DNA of 64,000 nt from Halichondria panicea (taxonomy: Eukaryota > Porifera > Demospongiae > Suberitida > Halichondriidae): positions 30,771 to 94,770 of the forward strand of contig NW_026986607.1 in assembly GCF_963675165.1 (NCBI RefSeq), given 5' to 3'. The notes under the pieces were generated by a model. It had not been told where the DNA came from and ran no database searches. It worked only from the letters and a program-made list of their open reading frames with translations. Both the position numbers and the translations under genes were made by a program. Numbering within the stretch: the first letter of the stretch is position 1; each line of letters starts with the position of its first letter. Below, in pieces: positions 5,307-37,209 of this stretch.

Positions 5307-6230
5307 CTAAGAACTTATAGAGAAGAAATCCACAGTTTGGATTTTAATCTTATTTACTATCTGTCCTCCGGCTACAATAACCTCTCCACTAGGAAGTACT
5401 GAGCATGTGCAGCAGTATCGTACAGTAGGCAGGTCTCCTACTTTCAACCACCTCCTGGTGTCAGGCTGGTAGAGGTGGATCGATGAACTTGGGTTGACTC
5501 TGTCATTCGCTCCACCAACGGCTAATAGTGACCTCCCAATACTGAGAGGAGCTGACAACCCGAGTGGTACTTCTTGTAAGGTCTGCCAGAGAGTGGGTGT
5601 GTCCAGGTTGGAAAGGGCCTTTGTAATGATGAGTTCATTGAGGTCGACGTGGTGCACTGTCTTGGTTGGCCCAGTGTGATCGTACCCTCCCATTAGGTAG
5701 AGGGTGTTTCCTATGAGAGTTGATTTCAGTTCTGATCGTGAGTTAGGTAGTGACTGAGCAATGTACCATCTTCTTGATGCCACGTCCAACACCTCCACAG
5801 AGGAGATACGACCATCACCATCACGCCCACCAGCTACAATTATGTGGTTGTTGAAGGAGACAGCTGTTGAGGATTGACGAGCAATGTTCATTGGTGGGTA
5901 CGGGTGAGTCCATTCCCCTGACTCGAGCACTGAAAGTTGATTGCTGGGTGTGTTGTTTCTTGGATCACGTCCTCCCACTAGCACTAGTCGATTAGCGAGT
6001 GATGTCATACCAAACCACTTGGCAGTGTACTCTGGTAGTTTGGTCCATTGATCTTGCTCGAGCTTCATCACTGTACACACGTTACAATCATCGCCTGCAC
6101 TGCCTCCACCAACATACGCCGTGTCACCGATAACAACACTCTGCACTGTGTAGCCCATCTTGATCGGCATGTCTTTTCCTCTTCTCCATTTCAGAGTGAG
6201 TGGAGGTCTCAACTCTCTTGGAGGGGGATC
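5307..6230 (-). CDS. Kelch-repeat beta-propeller, C-terminal exon
   Basis: Acceptor ATTCAG before 6230; begins DPPPRELRPPLTLKW and ends at the stop at 5307. Six kelch GG doublets are visible (AYVGGGS, VLVGGRD, IIVAGGRD, LYLMGGYD, LLAVGGAN, VIVAGGQ), each followed by the usual aromatic spacing, so a six-blade propeller of about 300 residues. Residues about 3001-3307 of the model. Kelch propellers are protein-interaction platforms. It joins in phase 0 to the coiled-coil exon, so it is the tail of the kinase chain and not a separate gene. Confidence 0.8.
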   Translation of the reverse strand, partial: DPPPRELRPPLTLKWRRGKDMPIKMGYTVQSVVIGDTAYVGGGSAGDDCNVCTVMKLEQDQWTKLPEYTAKWFGMTSLANRLVLVGGRDPRNNTPSNQLSVLESGEWTHPYPPMNIARQSSTAVSFNNHIIVAGGRDGDGRISSVEVLDVASRRWYIAQSLPNSRSELKSTLIGNTLYLMGGYDHTGPTKTVHHVDLNELIITKALSNLDTPTLWQTLQEVPLGLSAPLSIGRSLLAVGGANDRVNPSSSIHLYQPDTRRWLKVGDLPTVRYCCTCSVLPSGEVIVAGGQIVNKIKIQTVDFFSISS

Positions 6231-9200
6231 CTGAATAATGAATGAGCGTAATTAGGATAGTGTCTACTAACAAGCGAGTGTTACTTGTAGCAATAATTGT
6301 ATGCACACTAAATCACTTTTTTGAATAATCGTATGGAGGGTAATGTCGTGGGGCAAAATATTCGTGGTTTTCTAGTTGAAGGTCTGACCACGAATATTTT
6401 ACCCACGAATAAAGCGACCTTGCCTACCCTTCCCAGCAGTACAAGCAGCATGCAACCACGAAATGTCTCAAAATATTACCCACGAAACGTCTCAAAATGG
6501 CTGAACCACGAATATTTTGCCCCCTAAAAATTACCCGCTATACTGAAGCTTAAGAGGTGAAGACCACCAGCCCACTAGAATGTACAAAACTATAACATCA
6601 AAGCTTCTACTATAGCTCTGCAATAATATAATGGTGCATTGCACCTCACCTGTCTCTGTTCCTGTCTCTGTTGAATGATGGCGTCTCTCTTGACCAGCTC
6701 AGCATCTTTGTGCTCCATCTGTTCCCTGTGTGCCTGTACAGGGGAACGTTGGTGGAACTCATAGGAGAATGTAATAATTGTAGCAGTAGACAATTATGCT
6801 ACAGAACTACAGAACAAAATTAATCTTTACGCTAAAAAAATTATGTAACAATGAAACAGCACCCTAAGGAACAGTACTGTTGTTTGTGGCTGTAATCAAG
6901 AATCTCATTCACACACTACATGTACGCACCTTCTCGACTGGTAGAGTGTCCCTCTTTGTTGCCTCCACTGAGTCCGAGTCTCTTGTCAGTGAAACATCTA
7001 AAAGTAAGAATTAAACGTAAAAAACAAAATCGACAAATTTTTCTGAAGTGTAAAACACATAATTATCATGCACTAGGTACCGTCAGGAGCACATTAAGAG
7101 GAGTATGCAACTCCCACGCACATGCATTCCATCACTAACACTTGTAGTTGTGTAAACTATTAGCCATGAATAAAATTAAATGTGGGCTGGAGGTACAAAC
7201 CACACGTGTGTGTGTGCCGATATCTAATAACCACTACACCTACGCACCCACTTAAGATGTGGTCTGATAGTGACGTGGTATGACATGCTCCTACCGTAAC
7301 CTGGTTTACACTACAACTGCTACAGTTGGATACTCCTCTTAATGTACTCCTGGTACCGTATAGCGCGAAATTTTAGAGGCACTTATATTAATTTTCGTGG
7401 AATGGCCTCTAAAAGCATTTCGTTGCACAATGTTCGCGGAATGACTGCTTACCGGAAGCCAAGCCTTTAAATCTTTGCACGTTATAGCAGATAATTCTAA
7501 TTAAAGAATAATTTTCGTTGACTTAATTTTTGTGTAGGATTGCTAACCCACGAAATCCGCGCTATACAGTATCTAATAGACTCACAGATGTCCCTGGCAG
7601 ATGGTCTCCTCGTCATGTCTTCTTGCAAACAGCTGTCGATAAGCATCCTCAACCTGTGTGTGTGAGGGATCTGGGCAACATGGAATGATCGATCCTTGGC
7701 TGATTTGATCGTCTCTAACTTGCAAACAATCTGCGTCAAAATCACCCCAAAAGAAAACACATCCAGGCTATTATCGTAATTCTCCTCTTCCAATCGATAT
7801 GCCTCGGGAGGTAGATACCCTCTACGCTGACCAATGGCTGTGAGGGTGGAGCTGAGCTTGGAGGGATCGTATAGTCGCGACATACCAAAGTCAGAAATCT
7901 TTGCAACAGGCACTGGCAGTGTCAGCTTCAGCAAGACGTTATCGCCACAGAGGTCACGGTGGATAATCAGCTTGCTGTGAATGTAGGCCAGACCACAAGC
8001 CATGTCTTTGGAGAGGCTAATTTCACATTCGCTAGTGAGGGACTCTTCATCAAGGCCAGAGAAATAGGATCTCAGATTGCAATCCATCAGCTCAACAACG
8101 AGGATTGTACCACCTGATTTGGGGTGCTTAGTAATCGACAAAAACTGAACAACGTTTGGGTGCTGGAACGACTTGAGAAAATCACTCTCACGATCTATTG
8201 CATCGCTAGCATCTTCACTTTTGGTGGCGGAAATATTTGTCTGCATCTCCATAGCAACCTGATGTAATAGTTTGATAGCACAAGGATCGCCTCTGTAGCT
8301 GCCTTTGAAGACTGCTCCAAATGCACCACTACCGAGTGGCTCGTCCAGGAAAATGGTCAAATCATCATTGATCTTCTGGTGATTTTGGTCAACTGTAGGG
8401 TGTGGGGAGAGTGAGTGGGTGAGGCAGTGAATTAACAGTGATCATGGAATTATAGGAAAGATTGCTAACAAACATTATATAATATGAATTCCAGCTCAAT
8501 TAATTGGTACTTATACGTACCCTCTGACTTCATATCAGTAGACTGTAGATGATCTTTCTCGATGGTCCTGGCTATGTAGTTGAAGCCCACAATAGGACTA
8601 GACAATGCCCCCATCACATCTTCCCAGCTTCTCTCCCCACCCGTTAGCCATTCTGACAGTCCCTCACGATAGCAGTCATCAGGATTGTCACGCCATTTCG
8701 TACCTACATTGTTGATAGTAGCCGGGGATACGTCAAGAACAAGCAAAATGTTTCGCCACTTAACTCGAGCATCAAACGTGACTAGGTACACTTTCTTAAG
8801 ATCTTCTATGGTGAGATAGTCAGCCACAGAATGTTGTTGCCTACTTGTTTGAGCATCTGTTGTCTTCAGGACGACTTCATTTAATCCACTCTCATACAAG
8901 ACAGTAACAAGTTTATCTCGAGTAGCATCTTGCCCATCTCTTCTCTTCCACTCGTTGAAAAACCGATAAATCTGCTCTTTGAGGTCTCGTTCATTGGCAT
9001 ATTCAATTGATTGAATATCAATTTCCGTAAAACCAAGACTTCTGGCTAGGACCATCCAGTCTCGTCCAATGTGGTCAGAGACTTCACTGATGAGGGCATC
9101 CACTGACTCTACAGCATAGTCAGCATCAGGGGGCTCCAAGATTGATGGGTCTATTGCAATGGGATTCATGGTTGAGGAGGAAAGTGCATATCTCTCAAGT

Positions 9201-12200
9201 TCTTGAACAATTTTATCATGTCCTCGATGCTCCTCACTGGTCTTAAACAAGCAATCGTAGAGTAGGGCAAAACCATTTTTACCTCCATTTCTTTTTGTTA
9301 GATTGAGAAGATTAGATATTTTAGTTGAATTATCAAGATTCGGCGATTGTACAGAATCGACGTCAGCCCGATGTACCAGACGATATTTGAGCAAGTATGG
9401 AAAGAGTGTGGATATGCTAACAAAGAGTGTGAGGTTAGGGAGACACTCTTTAAAGACATCTTCAGTCATGGAATACCGTTCAATCAGGGAGTCATCAATC
9501 AGGGAGTCATCAATCAGGGAGTCATCTGAGGATAAAAGAAAATAGTGATTATAGCTGTATGAAGTAGAAATGAGAAACATGATCTAGTATGAACGGCCCT
9601 ATAATTATACTGTACTTTTAGAGCCTCTGCATAAAGTTAAAATTATACCTGATTGTTTCAGATTCGAAATGACTTGTTGAACCTCCTCCCAGCTTGGGTT
9701 GTGATGAATGTGGAACCATTTTCTGATCACCTCCATTAGTGCGGCATCCGTGTCTTGGCGGCACTGTACTGTTATGGTTTCCAGCGCATCACTCTCCAAG
9801 TTGAAGAGCATTCCCACTTTGTACCACGAACTAGACCATGGAATGAGTTCAGCAAACACGTTGTGAACGGTAACTGCGTCAGCACCTATGTAATTATACA
9901 ACCCAAAATAGTGATCAAGTTTTAATAATTAATTTTATACTTACTATCATGTATCTTGGTAAACCAGATGTCTTGAGTAGAAAAAAGTGCAAGCTTTTCA
10001 TTTGTAGCAGAACATCTCCAGTGACCCTCTGTGCTAGGAACGATCATGTGTGTGTTGTCAACCTGACCACATGTGCAGTGAAACCCCACAACAGGAAGAG
10101 CTTGACCAGTAATGTGAAACGCTTCTGCGGCTTTGTTTAAACCAGTAACAATTGCTGTTCTGATAAATGGTAGAAACTCATAATCTTGCATCGAATTTGA
10201 ATTGATATAAACAGTTAGTTCAGCATCTTCCTTTCTATACACATTTATGAGAGCATTGACTCCGGGTAGAATGAATTGCACAAAACTTTTGAATAGATCT
10301 CGACGAACATCAATTTTCCATGGCCATGGGTGACCATTGTACTGTGAGCACAAGTAGCACATGATGTATTCAAAACAACCATGGGCTAATAAACACTGGA
10401 TCACAAGTGGAGCAACTTTGGTATCTTTCAAACCGGAAACAAAGCTGAAAGTTTCAACACTGACTTCTTCCCTCAGTAAGCATGGCATCAAGAATAACGA
10501 ATTTTTCATTTCAATTAACAGATGTAAATCTTTAAAGAGGGATATTGCTTCTTTACATGTGAACAATCCTTCAGCATACATTACTTCACAAACTTCAAAT
10601 GCAGAGAAGGGAATAATAGCTCCTCGATTATGTTGTAGGTCAAAAAGGTTTATCTTTGCAATCAATTGGATCAATACGGTCGAATCCTTAAATATCACAT
10701 TTGGAAGAACATTGCCAAAGTAAAGAATCACACCAGTTATGTGCAGGCTAAGTAAGGCAATTTCAAGATCAGTTTCTGACATTCTGAATTCAGCAGCAAT
10801 AGTCAATACTTCTTGCTTGCTAATAAAGTTCCGATTGTATTGTTGCATAACTTTCTTGATAGCGTGACCAAGCATGTGCCAGAATAAAGAGACTTGCTTC
10901 AGTTCACTCAAATCCAATGATGATACTAGCTGTCGTTCGATGTTTTCTATCTCCCTCAATGATTTGCCTACTTCAAATACTTCTTGTTTTCCATTTTTAT
11001 CAGCAATTAATTTGGCTTGCTCATTATCCCTAAAGAGAATTTCACTATTTTTCTCAATCGACTCAACTTCTGCATGTGTTTCAACGACCATCAGTTTTGT
11101 TGCTAGCATACTGATGTCTTTTATTAGTTGCTTATTAGTAAAAGATACATCTGCTTCAATTTCAGTTTCGGGAACTAAAATTTTCTGAAGGATTATTTTT
11201 CCTTCGAGATCTTGGCTCAAACTCATACAGTTTATGCCTATGGCGATGCCTTTAAGGAAAATTGGTAGTACATTCAACAACCAAACATCAGAGCAGCATA
11301 CGCAATTAATAATGTTCAAATTATCAAAATCTTTTGTAAGCGATCGATCGCGATTTACCATTAGTTGTAAAATATTCTCAGGAGAGACACATTTTAATAG
11401 ACTCTCTTTAGGTATTGGCTCATAGATTAGAATCTGATTAGAAGTGAGATGCTGTGGGGAGTTTCCAGCAGGTATCGATCTTGGTACTTCAACTTCTTTA
11501 CCAACAGATTGAGCAGACCTTTCTTGCTTATTTCGATCACTTGCAGAGTTTTCACTTGATGTCTCTTTGGGTCTTTGCTGTAGAAAATGTTCATCTGGCT
11601 CGGTTTGGCCAAGCACTATATTGGGTTGTTGGATGGAATGTTCATCTGACTTGTCATTTTTAGCTCCCTTTGGAGTCTGTACAGCTGCATTACAAGCAAA
11701 CACCATATCCGAATCATCATCGTGTAAAGGTTTAATCTTTTCATCACTGACGGTATAGTAACTAAATTCAAAGCTGGGATCCAATGAGTGTGGTGATTCA
11801 AAAGGAGTAAAGTTCTTATCCATAATCAAACGCTTGCAGGTATGGACATCTGATCCTGGCAGTCCAGTAAAAAGAATTGTTGTGAATCGCAGACCAAACT
11901 TCTTTCCTTTCATCGCAGCCTCAAATCTAGCCTCAGCATCTGCAACAATAAATTATTATTGGCTGTATAATTATATAGTAACACCATTATAATTTACCTT
12001 TTAGAGTAGCTATCTTTGGATGATGTTCATCACTCAACCATATTTTGTGGGCAGCAGTGAGCTCCATTTGTTTGCCAGTATGTTCACCACATGTTACATG
12101 GTTATCAGTTGCAAATGGCAAATAATTGAGAAAGTGGATGCTAGATAAATGTTCGGAGCAAGAACATACAAATGTTAAGCGCATCGATTTCGTATTGATA

Positions 12201-15200
12201 ACTCTTTGCAGCTGCACATTAAGAGTGGATACAATTTGAAGACATAGGTCAATATGGGGAATATTGTCATCAGTAAGTCCATCAAAGTGAGCTCGAACAC
12301 AATCAATAAACTCAGTGAACACAAGCCGAAACTGGTTATTAATTTCAAACGACACCATGTTCTTACAATTTATAAAATCGGGTGACAGTTTCCATATTAT
12401 TCTGCCTTTTTTGATTCCAGAAAGTACGGTCATTAGTCTTGGAAAAAAACCTGGTGGTATAAACTTAGAGATTGGAACCAAAAACAGTGGTGCCACTTGT
12501 AAATCGGCTGGTAATACAGAACAGGCTGAAATTCTCGTATGAAATACATGCTGATGATTAGGACAAATGGGAAGCACTTGGAGCATAGACGGAATAAAGT
12601 AGCTTTCCAGTAAAGGCATATGCATTGCTAAATGGTGTTCATCAAAGAAGTTTAGAATCCATGATAGCGGGAGACCAGTCTTACTATCCTCTAGAAGCTT
12701 TTTACCAACTTGGACATTCAGAATACCCTGTGTTTGAAGACTCTTCCATTGCTTAGGATGATCCTTATACACTTGGGGATCAAGAATAGTTCCAAGAATG
12801 GAAAGTAGGTTCTTAGGCTCAACAAAAACATATTCTTGGAGCATTTTCTTGTTGTGATACCATATGAAGATACCAAGTTCATGAAAATAGCAAAGAGCTG
12901 CTCTAAGGTCTGTTTTACACTTTTTAGCTATTTCACTAGCTTTTTCAAATGTCACAATTCCTGTGCAAGGCTGTTGTAAACATGATTCTCGTTCTAGATC
13001 AATCTTGAAAGCAATCCATTTGCTAGGTATTTTTGCTTTGGCACTCTTTGTGCAGAAAACTATTTGCTCTCGCAAAGTTTTCATTCCAGGATCATCATAC
13101 TTTGCTCCTGATTGTGTGTTGTCTATCTCAAACATAAAAGAGTTGGGTGTAGAAGTTGAAGGCAAGATTACCTTTTCATGAAAGTTCGTTCCTTGAGAGT
13201 TCAGATTGAGTTTTAACTGAAGGAGCATTTGATCCAAGTCTTGCTTGTCATCTACTTTAATCTGATCTTTGAAAGTACCGATAAAGGCTATTTTAGGAAA
13301 AACCGTTGCACTAGCTAATTCGAATACTCTCTTCTTTAATATATCTGGAAGGTTGCTGAGATGCACATCCAGTGAATTAGAGTCTAAGAAGGAAAGACTT
13401 CGATACAGGTAATCAGTATATGTGTAAGGAGACTCTCTCTCTATTTCAAGTGGGCAGGTAGGTCTAATGGAAGCGTTAGAATTTTCCAACAAATCACAAA
13501 GTCGAACAACAATACCATAAATGGATCTAACTTTGGCGAAGCAAGGAAGAAGATCTTGAAACATTGGTTGCCCTCCTGTGTCCCAGAGAGTGAGATAAAT
13601 ATTATCTGGGTCGCTCTTATAAACACTGTCGTACTTCTTAAATACCACGGCGCTTTTCTTGGAGTCTATTGTACTTTCAAATGTTTCTTGGTAAAGCAGC
13701 TCCGGCTCCATTATGATTGTGCTTTTCTCCTTATCATTAAAGGGAATGTTCTGAAGATGCTTTCTGATGGACGTCTTTCCAACTCCCGTGTGGCCAATGA
13801 GAAGCATGTGCAAATGTGGTACCTCCAAATATTCAGAATCTGCTAGTTCAAAAGTAGCTTTCATTTCCAGGCTGGTTTTCTCCAACTCTAAATCGTATGA
13901 ATAATTATAATGACATAGATAATTGCTGTTACTTATAATAATACTTACTTACCTAGTATGTGTTCTAGTTCTTTGGCAACATCTGCTGTACTTGAAGAGC
14001 CTCGTTTATTGTCTGGGAACCACCTGTGCTTAAAAACGTTGAAAAGAATGTGGTTGTCAGGTAGTTTAGAATCGCTGTTGCACTGTTTACGATGAACCAT
14101 CAAAAGAAGACTATCGTTGAGCCAATTCAAGCTGGGTAACTCTGGTTGGGTGTTGAGTTCCACTTTATGGAAGTAAGATTGCTCATATATAGGTAAAAAC
14201 ATAGCTTTTGTGTCATTAGTACTATATTTGTGTACAAACAGAGATTCTGTAGTCAATTGAAGGGTAATATTTGGTGAGAACCCAAGAACACTAATAGCAG
14301 CATTCAATAACAATGAAAGCTGTTGTATTTCAGATAAGGCCTCAGATAAAAAGCAATACTCTTTTAATGGTTGCTGAACTTCAAACAGGACAACAGGGTG
14401 TGAATAGAGTTTAGTATCAAAATGAATGCATTTTGCTGGCATTACATTGGGCTTATTCGTTTGCACATCCTCGATGTATTTGGTGAATTTCAATTTATCA
14501 CCTTCACCATTGTATACTAATGCCATACATTGCTGTCCATTGTGAAGAGCTTTCCAGAGCGAGCATGGAGACACGTCTAGGTCCATTTCCTTTTGTAGTT
14601 CAAGTTTAGTTTCACAAAAAGTGTTGAGAATTTGATTGTAGGTTACTTCCACTTCAGATCCAGGATCTACAATAAAATCAACTATCATACTGAATAATCT
14701 AAAAAATAATTTACTTGCCTGTAAAAGTGTATTCAATGTCCGTGGTATCAATATCTGCCTCTTCTCCATCAATTGTCTCATTGTCTGCTTCACTACATGT
14801 ACTGCTGATCTCACCCATCCCACTGCTATCGAGACTAGACACAGAACCTGCATAAATTAACAAATGACATGCATAGCTTACAAGTACCGTATATACTAGT
14901 ATATACTTATACCACACTTACGTCACCACTCATTGGTCAACAGCTGTAGGATATTATAGCCCAGGCATGCACAGTTTTCAAGTTTTCAAGAAAGTAAGCA
15001 AAGACGGTTCTAAAACTCAAAGCAACGGCAGAAACACGGAAGCTGCTCTCCAACAAGATGGCTAAGCTTCCATGGCACGGTTAAGATACATTTTATCCAA
15101 GAAATCTTGCAACTCCAGTAAGGGACGTCGAATGGTCAACGCTTAGCATCTGTATAGGAGTTGACGTGTTGCTCAACTAGCTCTTTGATGGCTTGAAGAA

Positions 15201-18200
15201 GATCAATTGACTGCTTCAGCATATGTGCCAACTCCCGTAATAGTTCACAAAAGCACTATATGTTTTGTACCTCTAGCTAGCTAGCCACTATAGATCTATT
15301 GGCAGGCTGAAAGATTAATGATTTTCATTTCAATACTTCAGCATTAGCATAGATCTATGGCATTAGATATCAGCCACTACACTTAATTGCAAGACTCCAC
15401 GAGTAGAACGACGAAGATGATACAAAGCAGAGATTTGACTGAGATTTGTGATGCTCATCAATGGATGTTGTGTTACTCTAGCTAGTGGACTTAGCTGTAT
15501 ACATATACTGAGCGATTTTTTTACAAGATTATCATGTGTGACTTAACTATTTATAGCACAGCAACTCAGGAGCAATAATACTAAACCAAACTAGAGGCAT
15601 GCTGAGTATTTTGACGTTTTACTATAGATATTATATGTACTGTGGACTAGGATCACAGCAAAGAAGCCTGGAGTCTCAGAATGACAAGCACCCTCATGAC
15701 CCTACGCTGCCTTATAATTAAATTTTGACTCGATATTGAGACATAAAACGAGTGTGTCCATCAGAAAAGTCACGGAGAGCGCACAAAGTTGCGAAAATCG
15801 ACGTAAAGAGTAATTTTTTTCCTCGTGTTTTGGTCTGCTCCCCCGCACAGTGTATGGGGGGATCTTAAGGAGGGTGAAAGCTAAAACCCTATATATATAA
15901 TTATTATATTATGTATAGTTTCATAATACTCTTAATTGTGTTGTGTATACCTTGTACAGTGACATCATTCTTTGGACGCTTTGACAGAGTTTCAACTTCT
16001 TCATCTGATGGTAATGATCTTCTGCGCTGGCCTGAGGCTAGAGGATCTGTATGTAGTGTGTAGGAACAGATACAGTGCTAAATTAGAGCACTGGTGCTAA
16101 CCCTCGGCTGTTGACATAAATAATTAAAAAGGAGTATTCAATTAAGATATATTTTCATCAGTCTTGGTCTGTTGATTGTTGAACACCTACACAATACCTA
16201 TACCATACTCTACCAAGATTATGACCACCCTAATTGCATGCTACAAAGCAGTTACATGCATGCAGGTGGGATGAGCTTTATCTTCGAAAACATGTAGTTT
16301 ACGCTCATGACTAATGAGTGCACTCATAAGTCTTTTCTGTCTGCATGACAAATGCATCACTCCTGTTCTCGAGGCAATTAGCCTATGCAGGAACTTCCAC
16401 TCAAAAGTGGGGATGGGCATAATTTCGAACGTGGGCGTAACCTTGGTAGAGTATACACGTGTACACATGCATGTGTGTGATAAATGCTGATACTAACCTC
16501 CATACATCAGCACTAAACCTTGAATGGTCGGAACACTGTCACCTATCACTGATTCAGAGTCATCCTTTTCAGAAGATATATCTCTGACTTTTTGGCTGTG
16601 CAAATCTTCAGGAACAGTTGAGGGTTTTATCTCAGTTCTGAAACAGAAGCCACACAATTACACAGTATACTATAATGATTGACTCATTTGAAAAATCAAA
16701 CACTTACCCTTGCATGCATGGGTTGTTGTCGTTACATGTACGTGGTGATTTTATTTTAGAAGTACGCAAATGCCACATATGAAACATCGTATATAGTGTT
16801 GGAAATCTTATTAGTTATTGTGTCACTACGTATTATGTCATCAGTATTGTAATCACATGATCAGACACATGTTGTGAGAAATGAATGAAAGATGAACAAG
16901 AGTCAATATCTGTAGTATAGCGATAATGAGAACAGTTTGAACAGTTAAGGTTAAGTAAGAGTGAATTCTGATGGTCCTTCGAACCGGATTGGAATCGGAA
17001 GTCTACAAACAAGTTTGCGAAGACTACTCAACGGATCACTCTACTGTCTGCTCACATAGTGTGCAATGACCGACGCAGAAGTCTCAACAAGGAAGAAAAG
17101 AATACGCACTGGCCACAAGGCGTCGGCCACGCGCACTCTGGGTCAACTGGCTGTTGCTCTTGGAGAAACACCCCCAAACCCAGATCGACTGTCTCTACTT
17201 AAGCAGCCCCTCGAACAAAAGTTGGAAACACTAAAGGGATTAGATTATTGAACTTACCCCAGAGGAAACCCTTGATGATGAAAATCAACAAGCCGACGAG
17301 TATCGGGAGCGAATATATGAAGCCTTGACACGAATCAAAAGAGCTGAACCTCCTGCTACAGCACCTGGGATTGCCCCACCTACGACCACTCGAGGTTCTG
17401 AACGAGGGGCGAGAGTTCAACTGCCCAAACTAACACTTCCACACTTTAATGGTGACCTGATGAAATGGCCAACCTTTTGGGACTCATATGAGTCCGCTAT
17501 TCACAATAACGATGGGCTAACAGACACGGACAAGTTCAATTATCTGAGGTCCCTGGTGGAACGAACTGCGTATGATGCCATTTCCGGACTCACCGTGTCG
17601 ACCGTTAACTATCAAGAAGCGATTGAGATCCTGCAGAAAAGGTTTGGCAATAAACAACTGATAATCTCGAAGCATATGGAGACACTGTTGACGGTTGGAG
17701 GCTGTGACATCAGACCAGAACCTGAAGGATCTGCGACGACTCTACGACAGCACCGAATCACGCATGAGAAGTTTGAAGTCCCTAGGAGTGGAATCAGAAT
17801 CGTATGGGGCTATGCTCTCCTCTGTGCTGCTAACCAAGCTACCTACCGATCTGCGTCTCATTGTCAGCCGTAAGGTCACATCCACAGATTTGAACATGGA
17901 TAGCCTACTTAAAACCTTCGAAGAAGAACTGGTCGCTAGAGAGAGAGCTTCCAACTCCAACTCCTCCCATACACCACCACGTCGAAACCAAGATCGAGGC
18001 CGACAAACTTCCTCTACCCTATTGTCAAGGGTGCAGGAACCATACAAGAGCTGGCGTAAGTTGTAGCTACTGCCAGCAATCCCACTCGTCAACCGACTGC
18101 AAGACTGTAATCAGCCTCACTTTTTTCCAGGACGGTACTGTCAAGGAACACTTAGCGGAACTAAGCTGCGAATGGGTGTTCAACGTTGAACGCGCACCAT

Positions 18201-21200
18201 GGTCGGGTGGTGTCTTCGAGAGAATGGTCAAATCGACAAAACGTTGCTTACGCAAAGTGATATGGAGAGCCCACCTCTCGCATGATGAACTCCTCACTGC
18301 AGTCACGGAAATCGAAGCCGTTATCATATCTCGGCCAACGATTTGGAGGAAGAACTCGCTCCTTCTCATTTGATTGTGGGACGTCGAATTCTAAACTTAC
18401 CCGACCATATTGGATATCTATGTGATTCTACCGATGATGAAGAGTTCTCAATCAATTCTACACAACTTGCGAAACGCGTTAAGCATCTCAGCAGTATACA
18501 TTGAATCACTTTTGGAATCGATGGAGAACCGAGTATTTAGCAGAACTGAGGGTAGCCCATTACCATTCTGTGAAGAAAGTTGCCAATTCTGGAGACCACA
18601 ACCTGTCCATTGGAGATGTCGTGATCGTATACAACAAACACCTACCCCGTGGACTTTGGAAGCTCGAGAGGATACAGGAACTCATGAAGGGTCAAGACGG
18701 ACAATTTAGGGGTGCCACAGTCAAGATGGCCACGAGAGGTCGCCAACAGACTCTGCTGCATCGACCGATCCAACTACTATACCCCTTAGAAGTGAGATGC
18801 CCAATGGACCAGAGAAGCCAACTAACGATGCCGAGGAACCTGACACCGAACAAGAAGCTGACGTGGTCAAGGAAGGTCCTATGGAAACTCGACAAAGAAC
18901 AACACGTGTTGCAGCCCAACATGTATGAACTGGAAGACAATTGAACTTAAAGGACTGAACTTAAGATTATGTTATCCCGATTGTTGACCATGTTTGGTCA
19001 ACGGGGGGAGTGTGTTGGAAATCTTATTAGTTATTGTGTCACTACGTATTATGTCATCAGTATTGTAATCACATGATCAGACACATGTTGTGAGAAATGG
19101 ATGAAAGATGAACAAGAGTCAATCTAATTGAATCCTGTAGTACAACCTTTTTCACCTCATTTGAAATACACATTTTAAAAACAAAAAAAGAAATGTACCA
19201 CTAATTGACCTCAGGTATGTACATATAGTAATAGTCAGAGCTGGGCATGTTCACAATTTCAAATTGTTAATGAATGATAGATTGTGCAAGACCTAGATCT
19301 AAGCCTTCTTTAGAGTGATGTGCAAGACCTAGATCTAAGCCTTCTTTAGAGTGAATCCTATAGACGTTTAGGGCATAATGTGGCAGCACTTGTAGATCTA
19401 CCAGCAATCTGAATTTCAGGTAGTCGGCTTTTCAAATCATCTCAATGACGATTAGTTTATCGTGAGATCATCTAGACAGTACTCCCTTGGGCTGGCTTTA
19501 TTAGCAGACACATCTCCAGTGTGTTGAAATCTATCAACAACCCTCCAAACAGTAGCTTCAGCAACAAACAATCTATCTACTGCTTCCTTAATGGTACAGC
19601 AATTGACAAGCCTTTGCCATATACCATTCTCCACCTCAGATTCTCATGATAGGATTTTGTACGGCCAGGTTCCCCCATTATTACTTGGTCTTGCACAATC
19701 AATCATTTATGAAACTGTGAACATGCCCAGCTCTGACCATTACTATATGTACATACCTGAGGTCAATTAGTGGTACATTTCTTTTTTTGTGTATATTTCA
19801 AGTGAGGTGAAAAAGGTTGTATAGCGATAATAAGAACAGTTTGAACAGAGTGAATTCTGATTATTTACATATAGCAATACATACAGCATTTTCGTGAGGT
19901 GCAAAATTTCGCGTTTTTCGAAAGTATATAGAGCAGTAACACGAAAATTAAAGCCGGGATAAACTCCCATGCACGCACCGGTATTTTACATGCAAAGCTA
20001 TTGGTGGGTGTGGTTTCCTGACATTGAACCGCGAATATTAGAACTCACGAACATTTTTGCTGAGGGCTCTGGAGCCAAACAGCAAACATTTGCACCCACG
20101 AAAATTTCCCGCTATAATGGTATGTGCCCCCTACACCTTTGTATCAGTAATAGTACCTCTCAACAGTTGTAGGTGCATCTTGAAAAATACTGATTCCTGC
20201 CTCACAGAGAGAAGCTAGTTGTGAAACCGTGGGTGGAAATAACTGAGCAAAAGCCTTTGCAGAAAAAAGGAACCTTAGACACAAGCATCCATCCTCGATA
20301 CTGCATAAGCGAAATGTCCATTCATTCACGTTAAAGATAGAAGCAATGGTATCTTTGGCTGAGATAACATCACGAAGGGAAGAGTATCCACTTGAAGTTA
20401 GTTTCACTGTCAAAATGTTTGTACCGTTCCTTGATTCAGGTAAGCTGGGAAAGGTGTTGCGGGGAATCTCAAAGGCACTTCTTTTACAATAGTTGTCGAA
20501 TGCAATTACATAATCCTTCATGATCATTTTGTCCTTTTTGGAGCCGAATTCCAATACAATACTATTGACAATTTTGTAGTTCAAGAAAGACTTGTACGGC
20601 CTAAGGGCAACAAAAATAGAAGGAATTGTATCAGCTATTTCCAGTTTTGCGATGTATTCCTTCTCATCCGAAGATGAAATCATATCCAAAACAAAATTTT
20701 TGACCACCGCTACATCTTCCTTCGCTACATCTTCCTTGAGATTTTTTGCAATAGCAGTGTCGGCTCTAGCAAAGAGCTCGATCATATTCTGAGTATCCTT
20801 TCTGAGAGTGGCCTCTAGTACTGATCGATCTTCTTTAGAGAGTGCTGGTGTGTTGAGGTATGGAAAGAGGGTTTCACCAGTTGCTTTGTGGAAGGAATTT
20901 TTTGACAAGTACTGCTCAAGCGTGCATTTCTGACAATATGGACAGATAAAGCTGGGCCCTATAAAGAAAGAAGATTATGAAAAACAGTCAATAATTATTT
21001 TAAAACCAGTAGGCTTTCACGGGTAACGTTGTACCAATCTTGAAGCGTGTATAATTATAGTATTTTGCATGCACATACGTATAAATTTCACTAGTATTCG
21101 AACTGTTATAATTATCTTGACATTGGCGTGAATGAATCAAAACAGCATGGAAAGTATACCATACCCTCGCGAAAATAAGCCCACCCTTTTCTGCAAGAAG

Positions 21201-24200
21201 TCTAGGCTTATTAGGGGACTGGGCGTTTAATCGCGAACGGCTTGTTTTCATTTGAATATACGCCCATTCGCGGCCTCAAATCGAGGTTTACACTTTGCTC
21301 TATGACAATTCTTTAATTTTAATACATACTTTTAGTATGAACATTTCATTGACAACAACAATGTTATAAACTAATGCGTGAGTATGATTAAAGCATGACA
21401 AGAGAATGAACACGAAGAAGTGGACTCTGACTCTATTCGTTGCTTGTCAATGTCAGATGTTAGCAGAAACTTTCCGAAGGATGGTAGGTCACACTCCTAC
21501 AGAGCAGCTATCAGGTACTTTGTTTCAGAAACCCAAGGCAAGGTAACCTGCAAAATTAGCGTGTGTGATAACTTTCTTGGACTTTGTGTTTTCCTTTCTC
21601 AGCATGTAGGACTACTTGTTCCCTGCATATACATCTTTAAGAGAAAACTGATCCATACAGAGAAAGTTATATGTCTGATCTTGGTCCAGCAAGGAGTATA
21701 GTCTTACTATATCTGCTACCTAAAACTTCCTTTCTTCGTAGTTAACATGTGACATTCAGCTACTGCGCATGCTCATCTCTTTATTCTGGGTGGGCTTATA
21801 ATCGAGTGAAAATACCCTCGTGCAAGAACTTCAAAGCAAAAGAGGGGATGGGCGTTTATTCAAGATGGGCTTATTTTCGCGAGGGTACGGTACATGCATT
21901 TATCGCCTTTATCGTGTATATGAACGTGTGCTATGATATTTGTTTATGCATAATCATGTAAAAGGGCTTGTAGAATAATGAAAGCACTGCGGGTGCTATA
22001 CATGTAGCCTCTACACAGGCTCTCCTTTTTCTGTTCTTTATCACAATCGTTCAATAAGATAAAATACTGTATTATTCGTTCAATGAGATAAAATACGGTA
22101 TTAATTGGAGGAATAAAGAAAGAAATAGACGTAAAGTTAGGAAAAAGGAGAGCCTGTATCGGGAAGTCGCGTGAGGGTAGAAGGGTGGTAGAAGGGTGAA
22201 AATGAGCGTGGGCATACTGAGCTAGAGATGTTGGACTGCCCACGCAGAGGTCTACGACTAGTAAAACTTTGCCTGCTGCAAGCTGGACATGGACTTGGAA
22301 CTGGAAGTTTGCAAGCACTATAGCTAGCTATACCTTAGGCTTAGCTAGATGATCTACTAGTCTAGATTGTATGTTTAGATTCTATCACTATTACCTTTTC
22401 TTGTGTCTTTCTACATGCTATAGTAGAATAGCTTAGTCATCATTATCATATAGCAGGTAGCTACTGCCACCAGAGCTGGCCACGCTGGTTCTCTGATCTG
22501 ACTTGCAGCACAGCTTGGTGGTTGTCTCAGTGCAGTACAGTACAGTCTTACTCGGAATGCGTGGGAGAATACCTTACGTCACGATTGTGGGCTACATATC
22601 GCCCACGTTCATAAAAATCCTTGTGGATCACGCGATTTCCCAAACCAGGCCTTACGTTTTCTTAACTGTACGCCCATTTCTTTCTTTGCTGCCTCACTAT
22701 GTCTTTCTTATGTTTATGGATGAACAGTGACAACAGCAAGAAAAAGTAAGGCCTGGGAACGAGGCTACTATACATGATGCCTCGGTGAAGGTGTAAAACT
22801 TACATATTAACATAAAGCTGCTTTTATATACTAGCTCTTTGACGGTTGCAAAATCCGGCATATAGTCTTGTTCTTTTTGCAGTCTGCATCGTGGGATTGA
22901 ATTTTTGCTAGGGGGAGGTCCTTTTATAGTGCTGCGGTCACGTGGTATATAAGTCAGATATGCCACACCTACTCGGAGAATATGCACCCTATATATCCTC
23001 CGCTACAGTGGTTACATACCCCTCGGAGTAACCATGCACAGTAACGGAGGATATAATTATGGGTGCATGCATATCCTCCTCTTATAGGTGTGGTATATCT
23101 AAAACAATTTTCGTGGGCTTAATTTTTGTGTAGGATTGCTAACCCACAAAATCAACGAAAATTAAGCCCCTCGAAAATTTAGCGATTTACGGTGTATACA
23201 TGCAGATGCTCATACATGCAGATGCTCAAGAGTTTAATAAAGATTATGAATCTCATTAACGCTAAAAGTAATTATATATAGAGATTGTACCTTGTAGAGC
23301 CGTGTAGACCTGGATATCATCAATGGTGATGGATAGAAAGCCATTATTTGCTAAGAATTCAAGTTCTTTTCCTTGCTTCAACTGTTCCTCTATTGAGCAC
23401 GCCAGAGAAGGAGGGACGTACAAGATGATGCTTTTGACACCACCTGCCACAAGAATAAATTCCTGAGATAGGGAAAATCCTTTCGAAAAAAGTTTGCTAG
23501 TTGTCTTCACATCATACAAAGTACAGTCTTCCCATTTTTTGCATACTTTTTTAACGACTATTCGTTTCAACTTAACCATTGATGGCTTTGCAATTAAATA
23601 CGGCCAATAGTCAACAAAATCGCAAAGTTTAGTTTTAATAAGAAATGTTTTCCTTTCACTCTCATACTCGGCTAGCTTCCTCAGCAAAGGATTGTCTGCT
23701 TCAGTGAACATAACTCGAACCACGTGTTGGAAGAGCTCATAGTTCAAGAAATCCCAGAATTGATTTAACTTGCCCCATATCTCTGCGAGCATGTTCGCTT
23801 TCTCGAAGCATTCTTCAACATAATTTCCTGTAATGTGCTTTAACGATACACTCATGCTCGTTACAATAGCATAGAAATTGTCTACACTAATGCCAGATTT
23901 CTTAATTCGTTGATACCCTTCGTTAGTTAGCAAATTAAAGATCTCCTCCAGGTGTTTAACTTGGTCATCCAGGCTTGAGTAATCTGAGCCTGCAGGTAAT
24001 GAATTAACTGATTGTTCAGGTTACGAAAATCAATACTTACCAATTAGGCCAGTTTCTGATAAAGGAGACGGAAATTTAGACTGCTTTTTGCTCATCATTC
24101 CTATTGAAGAGCAAAAAAAGTGATCATTTGCTGAATTAATCAATAATAATTATGTTATAATTATTTGGGTACCAATTCTCCACTCCTCAATCTTCTCCGC

Positions 24201-24445
24201 CACATCCTTACGGTCCACGGTTGGAGATCGGAGACAGTCACACACATCCCTCCATGAGAGGGGGCCACCAGAGTGCAGACGTTTAATCAGCATTTCACGG
24301 AGACAGGTGTCAAGATTTTGGCTGTTTATTTCGTGGATCGCACTCAAGTCGTTACCATCAATGTTCAGGTTCAATCCAATATTGAACCATTTAGTACGAG
24401 CAGGATAGAGTTGTTTATGCAGTGGTGAAAGGTCATCACATATAT
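5307..24445 (-). CDS. Giant Death / Roc-COR GTPase / Death-CARD / kinase / kelch gene (16-exon model)
   Basis: Exons read from splice sites: 24173-24445, 24041-24100, 23291-23989, 20157-20958, 16498-16637, 15951-16046, 14719-14847, 13953-14666, 11998-13887, 9945-11939, 9649-9885, 8521-9525, 7586-8392, 6930-6997, 6650-6733, 5307-6230. Together 9,923 nt, one frame, about 3,307 residues; the N-terminus lies right of 24445 and was not found. Twelve of 15 introns are phase 1, so most exons are symmetric modules. Family knowledge: Roc-COR proteins are GTP-regulated dimers often coupled to kinases; death-fold domains build signalling complexes; kelch propellers bind partners. Inference: a cytosolic stress or immune signalling scaffold-kinase. 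The weakest join is 20157 to 16637, across a BEL element. An 8-nt start exon at 16708-16715 could instead begin a 2,698-residue gene. Confidence 0.6.
6331..6543. mobile_element. MITE in the kelch intron
   Basis: Ends are imperfect inverted repeats of about 37 bp (GGGGCAAAATATTCGTGG near both ends, outer GTATnGnGGGTAA). The interior repeats CACGAA motifs. Same broad group as the elements at 7356, 26360 and 30083 (outer CGTATAGCGGGT-type ends). Confidence 0.65.
6650..6733 (-). CDS. Coiled-coil linker exon
   Basis: 84 nt, acceptor CCTGTACAG, donor GTGAGG, phase 0 on both sides. Encodes 28 highly charged residues (AHREQMEHKDAELVKRDAII then QQRQEQRQ) with heptad-like spacing. It connects kinase and kelch parts. 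Such Glu/Gln/Arg coiled coils could mediate oligomerisation (inference). Confidence 0.7.
6930..6997 (-). CDS. Short linker exon after the kinase
   Basis: 68 nt between acceptor TTTTAG and donor GTGCGTAC. Taken with one base from the kinase exon it reads YVSLTRDSDSVEATKRDTLP then VEK. Changes the phase from 1 to 0, consistent with both neighbours. Confidence 0.7.
7075..7357. mobile_element. MITE family M2, copy 1
   Basis: Inverted ends (GGTACC...AGGAG.ACATTAAGAGGAG). The interior (ACCACTACACCTACGCACCC, then GACGTGGTATGACAT) is the reverse complement of sequence at 27640-27815, defining a two-copy family in this window. Confidence 0.65.
7356..7571. mobile_element. MITE with CGTATAGCGCG ends
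   Basis: CCGTATAGCGCGAAATTTT at the left, CGCGCTATACAGTA at the right. The GTAGGATTGCTAACCCAC core near 7537 is repeated at 23128-23146. It ends about 15 bp from the kinase donor at 7586, so it lies tight against a splice site. Confidence 0.6.
7586..8392 (-). CDS. TKL-type protein kinase domain
   Basis: Acceptor CCCTACAG before 8392, donor GTGAGT after 7586, 269 residues. Visible motifs: glycine loop GSGAFGAVFKG, VAIK-type lysine in CAIKLL, HRDLCGDN catalytic loop, SDFGMSR metal-binding motif, GYLPPEA activation-segment end, DVFSFGVIL, and MTRRPSARDI. All catalytic residues are present, so it is probably active. The HRDLxxxN loop is compatible with TKL or tyrosine kinases; TKL is my preference because LRRK/RIPK-like kinases have this N-lobe. 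It follows Death domains and precedes coiled coil and kelch. Bases 7936-8392 are duplicated at 1-457. Confidence 0.8.
8521..9525 (-). CDS. CARD-like plus two Death-like domains
   Basis: Acceptor ATCCTCAG before 9525, donor GTACGT after 8521. Begins with a 15-bp repeat encoding DDSLI three times, then a helical block (MTEDVFKECLPNLTLFVSIS ... GFALLYDCLFKTSEEHRGHD) with CARD/DED character, then two death-fold blocks: DHIGRDWMVLARSLGFTEID and DYLTIEDLKKVYLVTFDARV. Death-fold domains pair with like domains in signalling platforms. The last one is duplicated at 586-892. It lies directly before the kinase exon, phase 1 on both sides. Assignment of the first block as CARD rather than DED is tentative. 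Confidence 0.7.
9649..9885 (-). CDS. Death domain exon
   Basis: 237 nt, phase 1 both sides (acceptor TACATAG, donor GTATAAT). Encodes a single death-fold unit: FAELIPWSSSWYKVGMLFNL, ALETITVQC, DTDAALMEVIRKWF, NPSWEEVQQVISNL. The W-x-x-V-x-x-x-I end helix is typical of Death domains. It links the second Roc-COR-like block to the CARD/Death exon. Confidence 0.75.
9945..11939 (-). CDS. Second, degenerate Roc-COR-like block
   Basis: 665 residues in one exon, phase 1 both sides. Near the start, ILFTGLPGSDVHTCKRLI occupies the P-loop place but lacks the GxxxxGK(S/T) lysine and Ser/Thr, so GTP binding is unlikely. A long Ser/Glu/Gln-rich insert follows (about residues 70-180 of the exon), then a winged-helix-like stretch (ISKQEVLTIAAEFRMSETDL ... 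LLSLHITGVILYF) that resembles COR-A and a COR-B-like C-terminal half. Inference: a pseudo-GTPase repeat of the preceding exon. Could also be a diverged unrelated NTPase; I did not see intact nucleotide motifs. Confidence 0.6.
11998..13887 (-). CDS. Roc-COR (ROCO family) GTPase exon
   Basis: 630 residues, acceptor GATTTAG, donor GTAAAT. P-loop LLIGHTGVGKTSIRKHL about 30 residues into the exon; switch-II WDTGGQPMFQDLLPCF; a candidate G4 segment IGTFKDQ; then the COR region with a winged helix (ELGIFIWYHN, a long helix with LLSILGTILDPQ) and COR-B (PLFLVPISKFIPPGFFPRLM). This is the order known from ROCO proteins such as LRRK2, where COR mediates dimerisation and couples GTP state to a kinase. 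The exon is followed at once by the degenerate copy and, further down, by death-fold domains and a kinase. Confidence 0.8.
13953..14666 (-). CDS. Unrecognised ~238-residue domain before Roc-COR
   Basis: Phase 1 both sides; acceptor TTATTGTAG, donor GTAAGTAAG. Globular-looking sequence with segments VVLFEVQQPLKEYCFLSEAL, LLLNAAISVLGFSPNITLQL and SLLLMVHRKQ. The layout (small N-part, hinge-like hydrophobic strand, long helix, later NHILFNVFKHRWF) faintly recalls a protein-kinase fold without any catalytic motif, so a pseudokinase is conceivable; that is inference only. No family recognised. Confidence 0.55.
14719..14847 (-). CDS. Acidic linker exon with a GC splice donor
   Basis: 129 nt, 43 residues rich in Ser, Glu and Asp (EISSTCSEADNETIDGEEAD). 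Acceptor TTATGCAG. The exon ends ACAG followed by GCAAGTAA, i.e. a GC-AG intron, and this is the only border here that keeps frame with 13953-14666. GC donors with otherwise strong consensus are a known minor splice class. Confidence 0.6.
15951..16046 (-). CDS. Basic/Ser-rich linker exon
   Basis: 96 nt, acceptor TACATACAG, donor GTATAC, phase 1 both sides. Encodes PLASGQRRRSLPSDEEVETL plus KRPKNDVTVQ; RRRSLPS is a plausible basophilic phosphorylation or binding motif. No domain. Confidence 0.55.
16498..16637 (-). CDS. Linker exon (phase 2 in, phase 1 out)
   Basis: Acceptor TGTTTCAG, donor GTTAGTA. Encodes TEIKPSTVPEDLHSQKVRDI and a Ser/Asp-rich tail. Its phase-2 start fits both the exon at 20157-20958 and the tiny ATG exon at 16708-16715, so it is the point where two gene models diverge. 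Confidence 0.55.
16708..16715 (-). CDS. Alternative 8-nt first coding exon
   Basis: ATGCAAGG followed by a strong GTAAGTG donor. Joined to 16637 it gives MQGTEIKPSTVPEDL in frame. If real, the Roc-COR-kinase-kelch gene starts here (8,097 nt coding, 2,698 residues) and the exons at 20-24 kb form another gene. Eight bases are easily found by chance. Confidence 0.3.
16797..16971 (+). repeat. Left LTR of BEL-2
   Basis: 175 bp, matching 19013-19140 and 19820-19860. Contains GTAGTATAGCG, the uninterrupted version of the site where the right LTR carries a transposon. A 17-bp segment near the end is absent from the right LTR. Confidence 0.8.
16972..16989 (+). other. Primer-binding site of BEL-2
   Basis: TGGTCCTTCGAACCGGAT, complementary to a tRNA 3' end including a T-arm-like GGTTCGA and terminal CCA. 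Identical to the site at 43415-43432. Confidence 0.7.
17066..18100 (+). pseudogene. BEL-2 gag remnant
   Basis: Starts MTDAEVSTRKKRIRTGHKAS, then in a second frame the BEL/Pao gag core (LPHFNGDLMKWPTFWDSYES, DUF1759-type), a third frame from about 17690 (LRRLYDSTESRMRSLKSLGV), and a zinc-knuckle remnant CSYCQQSHSSTDC in yet another frame near 18065. At least three frame changes and a stop at 18064-18066 show decay. Gag packages the element's RNA in intact relatives. Confidence 0.75.
18120..18944 (+). pseudogene. BEL-2 integrase C-terminal remnant
   Basis: Resumes with ERAPWSGGVFERMVKSTKRC, the region around the third catalytic position of BEL integrase, followed by the DUF5641-type tail (GDVVIVYNKHLPRGLWKLER). 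Everything between the zinc knuckle and this point is missing, so a single large internal deletion near 18120 removed most of pol. Later frame slips occur near 18350 and 18490. Confidence 0.7.
19143..19819. mobile_element. Tc1/mariner-like element with long inverted arms
   Basis: Ends CAACCTTTTTCACCTCA and its reverse complement; arms extend about 150 bp (AGAGCTGGGCATGTTCACA on both sides). Flanked by TA at 19141-19142 and 19820-19821; the other BEL LTR shows the empty GTAGTATAGCG site, so TA is the duplicated target, as for Tc1/mariner. A 36-bp direct duplication lies at 19283-19354. The interior keeps only a helix-turn-helix fragment, so it is non-autonomous. Confidence 0.8.
19452..19634 (-). 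pseudogene. Transposase helix-turn-helix fragment
   Basis: Reads IKEAVDRLFVAEATVWRVVD then RFQHTGDV, the paired-like helix-turn-helix found at the N-terminus of Tc1/mariner/IS630 transposases. No DDE domain follows. Confidence 0.55.
19875..20125. mobile_element. Degenerate MITE of the CGCG/TAGCGGG group
   Basis: AATTTCGCG and GAAAATTTCCCGCTATAATGG motifs at the two sides with CACGAA-type interior words, as in the 6331 and 26360 elements. Borders approximate. Confidence 0.35.
20157..20958 (-). CDS. Module B exon of unknown family, with a CxxC start
   Basis: Acceptor TTTATAG, donor GTACTA; phase 1 in, phase 2 out; 267 residues. Starts PSFICPYCQKCTLEQYL, a small Cys cluster, then an alpha-rich domain: SFLNYKIVNSIVLEFGSKKD, VKLTSSGYSSLRDVI, LRFLFSAKAFAQLFPPTVSQ. 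It aligns by eye to the 23291-23989 exon at FLNY, VK, L.DV and the PP/P-x-x-A-x-x-L region, so it is a diverged repeat. Contains a tandem 15-bp repeat (KEDVA twice). No known domain recognised. Confidence 0.6.
22008..22260. repeat. Dispersed repeat family R, copy
   Basis: AGGCTCTCCTTTTTCTGTTC at one side and GAAAAAGGAGAGCCTG with GAGCGTGGGC at the other; same layout as copies at 52853, 53390, 56893, 57680 and 58730. Short inverted arms enclose AATAAAGAAAGAAA. Confidence 0.6.
22570..22775. repeat. Dispersed repeat family R, diverged copy
   Basis: GTGGGC, CGCCCATTTCTTTCTTTGCT and GAAAAAGTAAGGCCTGGGAA elements in the family order, with more changes than other copies. Confidence 0.45.
22957..23099. 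mobile_element. Hairpin MITE
   Basis: Ends AGATATGCCACACCTA and TAGGTGTGGTATATCT; arms continue through GCACCC and ATCCTCCG, so the 143-bp element can fold along most of its length. Confidence 0.6.
23105..23200. mobile_element. Partial MITE related to 7356-7571
   Basis: Shares TTTTTGTGTAGGATTGCTAA and flanking AAAATTTAGCG/ACGGT words with the element next to the kinase exon. Confidence 0.45.
23291..23989 (-). CDS. Module A exon of unknown family
   Basis: Acceptor CCTGCAG, donor GTACAA; phase 1 both sides; 233 residues. Starts SDYSSLDDQVKHLEEIFNLL and has FWDFLNYELFQHVVRVMFTE, KTKLCDFVDYWPYLIAKPSM, DCTLYDVKTTSKLF, IILYVPPSLACSI. No transmembrane segment or enzyme motif seen. Related to module B (20157). 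Its place between a Death domain and the GTPase suggests a signalling adaptor or sensor module (inference). Confidence 0.65.
24041..24100 (-). CDS. 60-nt linker exon
   Basis: Acceptor TTCAATAG, donor GTAAGTATT; phase 1 both sides; encodes MMSKKQSKFPSPLSETGLI. Frame agrees with both neighbours. Confidence 0.55.
24173..24445 (-). CDS. Death-like domain exon, most 5' exon seen
   Basis: Acceptor CACACAG, donor GTACCC; phase 1 both sides; 91 residues. Pattern LHKQLYPARTKWFNIGLNLN, DLSAIHE, LDTCLREMLIKRLHSGGPLS, WRDVCDCL, VAEKIEEWRI is a Death domain (WxxIGxxLxxxxxxLxxI ... WxxVxxxL). A phase-1 start means a coding exon lies further right; I could not identify it. An in-frame ATG at 24488 precedes a GT/CA-rich tract and is less likely to be the start. 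Confidence 0.65.
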
Positions 24446-37207: not shown

Positions 37208-37209
37208 GA

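Follow-up and report, generated by a model that had tools for sequence, protein, structure and literature searches.

A putative ROCO-type chimera in the sponge Halichondria panicea with a kinase-kelch tail from a neighboring gene family

Introduction

Kinases of the RIPK/IRAK type carry a Death domain beside a TKL-like kinase. Among ROCO proteins there are cases in which GTP controls a kinase of the same polypeptide, in either direction, and kelch motifs are mentioned for some members, without detail (PMC6320773). According to the same source (PMC6320773), DAPK1 starts with the kinase, and ankyrin repeats, Roc-COR and a Death domain come after it. For the sponge Amphimedon, a further study describes a Death/TRADD-N expansion (NCOA6 clade) of 357 proteins with one to three death-like domains, TRADD-N and a variable C-terminus that is sometimes a kinase (PMC8195603), and for brown algae, another reports an expanded ROCO family with exon shuffling and diversifying selection, proposed to act as immune receptors (PMC11378527). 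Among the titles and abstract openings listed for ROCO, death domains, kelch, LRRK and sponges, we found no description of a fused Roc-COR/Death/kinase/kelch architecture, and the accessible part of the H. panicea proteome paper mentions neither Roc nor kelch (PMC12345144).

Here, we analyze a window of 64,000 nucleotides (C28:30771-94770) from the genome of the sponge Halichondria panicea (131 Mb in 39 contigs). The original prediction for this DNA held that a single minus-strand reading frame encodes a Roc-COR GTPase together with death-fold domains, a kinase and a kelch tail; our reconstruction upholds it with corrections. On balance, we consider it moderately probable that the locus is a recent chimeric gene, in which a ROCO-type scaffold was joined in frame to a Death-kinase-coil-kelch array gene, and that its product would work by the sensor-switch-kinase mechanism proposed below. 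Outside C28, we compared C6, two M2 loci (C1 5.39 Mb and C22) and four front loci, of which three include Roc; the pre-Roc copies on C12 and C10, though close, were left aside, and domain maps included matches of at least 40 bits (38 for the C6 map).

Results

A 17-exon gene model with an intact frame

Rejoining the 16 splice-bounded minus-strand exons first proposed (24445 to 5307) gave a stop-free frame of 3,305 residues, as predicted, but of 9,920 nt rather than 9,923. Acceptors were AG in 16 of 16 cases and donors GT save for one GC after 14719, a donor that is also GC in three of the four paralogues aligning there and GT in the fourth. The chain of exons stood, but it needed two corrections: a start exon had been missed and the end of the kinase exon was most likely misplaced. 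The exon originally taken as the first (exon 2 here) has no usable start codon, and a search for a short ATG exon with a phase-1 donor, kept upstream in paralogues, located the start outside the proposed span. This exon 1 (32771-32825, minus strand) consists of the start codon and MATGGGHGVDSGEASPLD, followed by a phase-1 GTGAGT donor; its 18 residues are identical in all five loci compared (the window, C4 and three on C1), where base changes are synonymous only. For the kinase exon, the most likely end is 7586, with the donor GTGAGT, which is the one that the related proteins P0090, P0082 and P0087 imply. The donor first assigned, at 7568, was rejected because it would break the frame in C6, whose copy is one base shorter at this point, and because it differs from the donor implied by the three related proteins found.

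The preferred model thus has 17 exons on the minus strand (5307-32825) and 9,957 nt encoding 3,318 aa, without frameshift or premature stop; the frame does not look accidental, as the exon at 9525-8521 has 0 stops when read in it, compared with 18 and 43 in the two alternative frames. Splice sites that break the frame, the finding that the original prediction had named as speaking against it, were not encountered: frame and sites are intact throughout the preferred model. Introns are in phase 1 from the donor of exon 1 to the kinase exon, with the exception of a phase-2 intron between M2 and the next linker; as M2 and this linker share that intron, they form one symmetric pair, and the layout permits module shuffling.

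In the paralogue comparison, splice dinucleotides are conserved at nearly all aligning places. An automatic comparison returned out-of-step lengths for exon 6 (C1 3.01 Mb), exon 11 (C1 3.01 Mb and C4) and exon 14 (C6), and read the exon 13 acceptor as AT in C1 3.01 Mb. Read base by base, the discrepancies in exons 11, 13 and 14 are alignment or local differences with the sites intact, and that in exon 6 is unexplained. The phase-1 GTAAGT donor of exon 11 is common to C1 3.01 Mb, C1 3.10 Mb and C4, and the exon 13 acceptor (TCAG/AT) is also present in these three and in C6.

Several elements lie in and around the gene. Ty3/gypsy-type frames at window 33265-37213 on the minus strand (RT, RNase H and integrase by Pfam; a gag-like frame by eye) lie upstream of the gene and end some 440 bases before its start codon. 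A BEL/Pao-type retroelement occupies 43711-49239 on the plus strand, with Peptidase_A17 and DUF1759 in the frame 43711-48525 (Pfam), and a BEL/Pao-like fragment (17244-18944, plus strand; DUF1759 at 17244-17873 by Pfam, the rest by eye) lies in the intron between M2 and the next exon. Within intron 1, alignments to the four front loci break off over about 700 bases beside the Death exon (24485-25181), a probable insertion. The short repeat GTGGGTTAGCAATCCTACACAAAAATTAAG is found at 7500-7590 (beside the 3' end of the kinase exon) and 23100-23170 (another intron), and in similar form beside the kinase exons of C6 and C28 31 kb; by eye, it looks like a small dispersed element.

Domain order along the protein

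Exon 2 (24173-24445; this and all following exons on the minus strand) encodes an N-terminal Death-like domain (NDeath) and exon 3 (24041-24100) a linker, with AG/GT kept in four of four aligning paralogues for both and the frame kept as well for exon 3. Exon 4 (23291-23989) and exon 5 (20157-20958) encode the homologous modules M1 and M2, and the window carries both. M1 aligned in three of the four front loci (C4, C1 3.10 Mb and C1 5.35 Mb), with no alignment in C1 3.01 Mb or the C6 stretch, and M2 in one of the four, with AG/GT, in C1 3.01 Mb only. Residues 173-265 of the M2 model are predicted to form a ferredoxin/RRM-like sandwich, a TRADD-N candidate, and Foldseek gave no match for M2 at E 0.001 or below; M1 and M2 may be TRADD-N-like. 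Three linkers follow: exon 6 (16519-16637), weakly supported, with its donor end kept in C1 3.01 Mb and its front and acceptor different there; exon 7 (15951-16046), the least supported exon, which comes from reconstruction of the exon chain and to which no paralogue aligned at the DNA level; and exon 8 (14719-14847), which is acidic and bears the GC donor. Judged by these alignments, the connection from the modules to Roc is weakest at exons 6 and 7. Exon 9 (13953-14666) encodes a pre-Roc module with seven close places listed among the 40 of 230 candidates scored (C28, two on C1, C4, C6, C12 and C10), six of them further copies in the genome.

Exon 10 (11998-13887) encodes Roc1-COR, in which GHTGVGKTS (1014), DTGGQ (1085) and GTFKD (1186) are what we take to be intact Roc G motifs. 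Pfam matched Roc on Roc1 (41.2 bits against a cut-off of 27) and, after it, COR-A over the whole 143-position profile (E = 8.8e-7; 29.4 bits, below the cut-off of 35.3); in the close copy P0090, COR-A reached 50 bits over two stretches. Across the genome, COR-A gave 60 matches, 25 of them above cut-off (70 of 70 candidates scored). Exon 11 (9945-11939) encodes a second Roc-COR that had been called degenerate, rightly so: the P-loop lysine is gone (the place reads GLPGSDVHT), the catalytic motifs are absent and the COR-A match is weak (E = 2.5e-4).

The kinase is C-terminal, and between it and Roc1-COR lie this Roc2-COR, the Death-like domain D2 in exon 12 (9649-9885; joint Death profile) and, in exon 13 (8521-9525), a helical domain, DD3 and DD4. 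For the order of domains, the original prediction found mixed support. Of the Death domains, Pfam matched DD3 alone, besides Roc, COR-A (below cut-off here), kinase and kelch; the other three (N-terminal, second and fourth) depend on a weak joint profile with 13 PDB matches (E up to 1), comprising 12 PIDD/FADD death-domain chains (E 0.02-0.23) and one unrelated chain. The CARD-like label of the helical region was upheld by no test, as Pfam gave no CARD match there, an eight-sequence profile searched against the PDB gave no death-fold match and one unrelated match at E 1.3, and the structure model of exon 13 had a mean pLDDT of 49.

Exon 14 (7586-8392) encodes the protein kinase (Pkinase, 127.7 bits) with the catalytic motifs GSGAFG, CAIK, HRDLCGDN and DFG; its 60 best PDB matches did not single out RIPK or IRAK. 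Coiled-coil parts in exon 15 (6930-6997) and exon 16 (6650-6733) keep AG/GT in C6 and in the downstream C28 copy (89% of exon 16 aligned), and exon 17 (5307-6230) encodes a kelch propeller of six GG blades (Kelch_1, E = 6.2e-27), with the stop at 5307. Pfam gave no WD40 match on the tail. No LRR was matched in P0090, P0092 or the exons scanned (singly, all but exons 1, 3, 6-8 and the coil exons), and no ankyrin repeat in the exons scanned. By its Roc and COR matches, the protein is a ROCO member and neither an LRRK nor a DAPK; orthology to LRRK or DAPK was rejected, as the domain order does not fit.

A front half shared with paralogues

The original prediction had called for relatives with the same order. 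Three paralogues (C1 3.01 Mb, C1 3.10 Mb and C4 7.73 Mb) share the order and orientation of the front, from Death to the CARD-like region/DD3, and are 65-94% identical to the window by segment; the tail, however, was not found in the stretches compared there, and C6 (P0090) is joined at another breakpoint. A fourth locus, C1 5.35 Mb, carries exon 1, Death, exon 3 and M1 within the stretch compared. In the long proteins P0090 and P0092, a related module, similar to M1/M2 by eye, precedes Roc in one chain. Together, the paralogue order, the kept splice sites and these module-Roc chains support the view that the front half is one gene.

C1 3.01 Mb and C1 3.10 Mb end after DD3, with stops 2 and 14 codons past ...SRQHSV in the DD3 exon, respectively, and C4 ends after the CARD-like region. 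Behind C1 3.01 Mb, C1 3.10 Mb and C4, the 16.9, 10.1 and 8.1 kb compared contained no match to kinase or kelch that reached 40 bits.

An N-terminal 2A-like motif, GDVETNPGP, follows a hydrophobic stretch in P0090 (one copy) and P0092 (two copies); neither the window nor the C1, C4, C22 and C28 stretches compared contained it. In sea urchin, one study reports 2A-like sequences in about 35% (85/241) of NLR proteins and an N-terminal one that acted as a recoding signal sequence (PMC4981915).

An in-frame joint within exon 13

Exon 13 reads ...SRQQHSVADYLTIEDL..., where the end of the Roc gene runs into the start of a stand-alone Death-kinase-kelch gene with no stop between, in frame and within a single exon. 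A DNA search spanning the joint placed the breakpoint at 8825-8827 (minus strand; about 8826). With a 560-base query, 42 matches were listed (40 of 163 candidates scored) and the window alone spans the joint; of the others, three cover the first 256 bases and 38 lie within 255-560, with none covering both. The sequences on either side are unlike and share about 2 bases. The exact joint was seen only on C28, an unplaced 94.8-kb contig. The open frame of the joint exon was absent among the 17 proteins found with that exon, and a whole-length protein search returned no protein with the window's own front.

Stand-alone Death-kinase-coil-kelch genes starting with MSDYLTIEDL or a close variant of it stand in tandem downstream on C28, the start exon of a neighboring one (590-892, minus strand) exemplifying the kind that would have donated the tail, and similar genes occur among NCBI-named proteins (P0082, P0087). 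The joint is, by sequence identity, young: its DD4 part matches a stand-alone place on C6 at 97% identity, and the kelch exon matches another at 99%. The position of the stand-alone ATG reads GTG in the window (GTGGCTGACTATC), leaving the tail without a start codon at that place, and the donor after DD4 is common to the window and the downstream stand-alone copy. As far as alignment can tell, this shows a kinase-kelch tail gained recently from a neighboring gene family. With the tail absent from the stretches compared behind three paralogues and stand-alone genes of the donor kind on the same contig, the kinase-propeller arrangement looks independent of LRRK2, as originally proposed. The further proposal of a signaling hub is not supported as an established role, the joint being young and seen on this contig only.

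A second joint and other tails

At C6 725-735 kb, on a 7.6-Mb contig, the same back half runs into kinase, coil and kelch, with DD4 absent; at the protein level, identity to the window is 97% in Roc2, 92% in DD3 (with a small insertion) and 97% in the kinase. The Roc (DD3) exon of C6 retains the ancestral TAA, with the pre-kinase intron immediately after it. The predicted C6 protein P0090 (3,215 aa; Roc, COR-A, Death, kinase, kelch) bypasses this TAA via a donor in the last codons of DD3 (TTDAQ-KIDQNHQ), the sequence of which (A/GTAGGC) also exists in exon 13 of the window. We rejected one ancestral fusion for both loci because C6 keeps ancestral bases and a stop missing in the window, and DD4 is kept in the window and missing in C6. 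As neither state yields the other by simple loss, we read them as two fusion events with different breakpoints, a reading that gene conversion could complicate.

The NCBI model LOC135345186 (assigned to C12) combines Roc, COR and Death with a kelch tail unlike that of the window (22% identical) and has no kinase, on its predicted sequence another kind of tail. Going by these joints, the ROCO-type scaffold is one that gains tails from neighbors, in a layout that is not of the LRRK2 type. A 2,862-aa model, P0093 (LOC135335598, assigned to C4), reads Death-Death-kinase, then repeated AAA/GTPase-like and Ig-like segments; as modeled, this is another tail on the same kind of kinase.

The same observations might arise from two genes that merely look fused, with Roc transcripts that terminate no later than exon 13 and a kinase-kelch part that is transcribed, like the stand-alone copies, from its own start. 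Such a view would suit the three paralogues that end after DD3 or the CARD-like region, the stand-alone kinase-kelch genes that start at the homologous place, and the C6 DD3 exon, which still ends in TAA so that a fused C6 protein needs another donor. The window, however, has no stop, reads GTG in place of the stand-alone ATG and shares the post-DD4 donor with the downstream stand-alone copy, and we consider two separate genes unlikely. From its sequence, the fused product is a strong prediction.

Mosaic identity, constraint and kelch variability

From the N-terminal Death domain to Roc1, window DNA is 85-98% identical to the four front loci (Roc1 97%) and 87-89% identical to C6 where aligned. 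From intron 9 to the kinase, it is mostly 97-99% identical to C6 (intron 10 91.5%, exon 13 front 93%), and its exons are 79-92% identical to C1/C4; for the coil and kelch exons, identity is 84-96% with C6 and 81-100% with the best-matching C28 copies. On these figures, the gene is a mosaic with a front like C1/C4 and a back like C6, and the identity switch at intron 9 indicates that the two halves have different histories. The mosaic could be of assembly origin, and the joint itself might be an artifact if the contig merges reads from different copies of a repeated family, as the unplaced contig, the parts 97-99% identical to several C6 places and the change at intron 9 would allow. Misassembly usually joins long identical stretches, however, whereas this joint is sharp, in frame and between unlike sequences with their roughly 2 shared bases, and a comparable Roc-to-kinase joint lies on the 7.6-Mb C6 contig; we regard an artifact as decidedly unlikely.

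Ka/Ks values for Roc1, the kinase and most other exons were about 0.2-0.6, with stops in 0 of the 41 comparisons printed (those below 60% identity, below 60% of segment length or identical were dropped). Against paralogues, we obtained 0.31-0.57 for Roc1, 0.19 and 0.37 for the kinase, 0.34 and 0.36 for DD4 and 0.33-0.37 for M1; values were looser for the N-terminal Death domain (0.63-0.95), M2 (0.51-0.68) and Roc2 against C6 (0.67), and ranged from 0.36 to 1.06 in the kelch tail. Roc1 and the kinase look to be under constraint, with their catalytic motifs kept. Least likely of all is a decaying pseudogene produced by random recombination in a transposon-rich array, for although the joint is young, retroelement frames lie upstream and in an intron and kelch Ka/Ks reaches 1.06, all 9,957 nt run free of stops and frameshifts, the splice sites are intact and Roc1 and the kinase are constrained.

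In the eight residues after the six GG pairs of the kelch propeller, 39 of 48 columns are variable, compared with 58 of 249 elsewhere, a contrast favored by the choice of GG pairs as invariant and to be read against the loop variation of most propellers; none of 296 circular shifts reached this clustering. The pN/pS ratio was 1.55 in the loops (bootstrap 0.93-2.92) and 0.57 in the rest (0.41-0.85), from 5 copies (4 in the bootstrap, from related arrays), and the genome search scored 40 of its 189 candidates, each with an identity of 89% or more. In Keap1, the corresponding post-GG loops face the ligand. The pattern suggests that the kelch loops form a diversifying binding face. Large arrays of near-identical kelch and Death exons lie at C1:15.5-17.4 Mb and C6:0.4-0.8 Mb.

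Discussion

If the locus is the recent chimeric gene that we favor, its ancestral scaffold would have consisted of Death, one or two TRADD-N-like modules, Roc-COR, a dead Roc-COR, Death, a helical domain, Death and a stop, and would have been joined, most simply via a deletion, within one exon to a gene of the tandem array. In the product, the kelch face would bind a varying ligand, Roc-COR would serve as a GTP-controlled dimer switch and the Death domains would gather copies into an oligomer, where proximity would activate the TKL-like kinase to signal in an immune or death response. The fusion would thereby put sensor, switch, assembly and output in a single chain. Plant NLRs with integrated domains are a comparable case, and an immune role is an inference.

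More speculatively, the locus could belong to a tail-swapping receptor system, a possibility that we put forward tentatively and do not expect to hold as it stands. A small family of ROCO/Death genes would retain constant fronts, and a hypervariable Death-kinase-kelch array, fused to them in frame again and again, would supply variable C-terminal sensors and kinases. Recombination between loci would mix fronts and tails, individuals would differ in their fused receptors, and the whole would be the animal equivalent of plant NLRs with integrated domains, built around an LRRK-like GTPase.

What stands out most in the chimeric gene, as we read it, is that it arose by fusion and that fusions of this sort occur in more than one form. 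An LRRK-like layout of GTPase, kinase and propeller would here have been assembled from scratch by fusion of neighboring genes, visible at base resolution, and such assembly apparently happened twice, with different breakpoints, in one genome; tail fusion from neighboring genes may be a way to build new sensors. If functional, the protein would make receptor, switch, assembly and kinase available to biochemistry in a single chain, and would allow one to ask whether the intracellular receptors of early animals diversified, like those of plants, through domain integration.

Like LRRK1/LRRK2 and the Dictyostelium ROCO kinases, the sponge protein has a Roc-COR GTPase and, further on, a TKL-type kinase and a propeller. 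Unlike them, it has no LRR that we found and has kelch instead of WD40, a dead second Roc-COR and death-fold domains lie between COR and kinase, and the kinase-kelch part appears to have been acquired locally. DAPK1 also combines kinase, Roc-COR and Death in one protein, but its kinase is N-terminal and that of the sponge protein C-terminal. As in the Amphimedon Death/TRADD-N expansion, a death-like domain comes first and a variable C-terminus that can include a kinase comes last, and the modules after the first Death-like domain may correspond to TRADD-N, whereas Roc-COR and kelch are not named in the accessible part of that study (PMC8195603). In the brown-algal ROCO family it is LRR exons that shuffle, whereas in the sponge it would be whole tails and phase-1 modules. 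Finally, the donor genes resemble RIPK/IRAK-type kinases in pairing a Death domain with a TKL-like kinase, from which the sponge protein differs in its kelch tail and its ROCO front.
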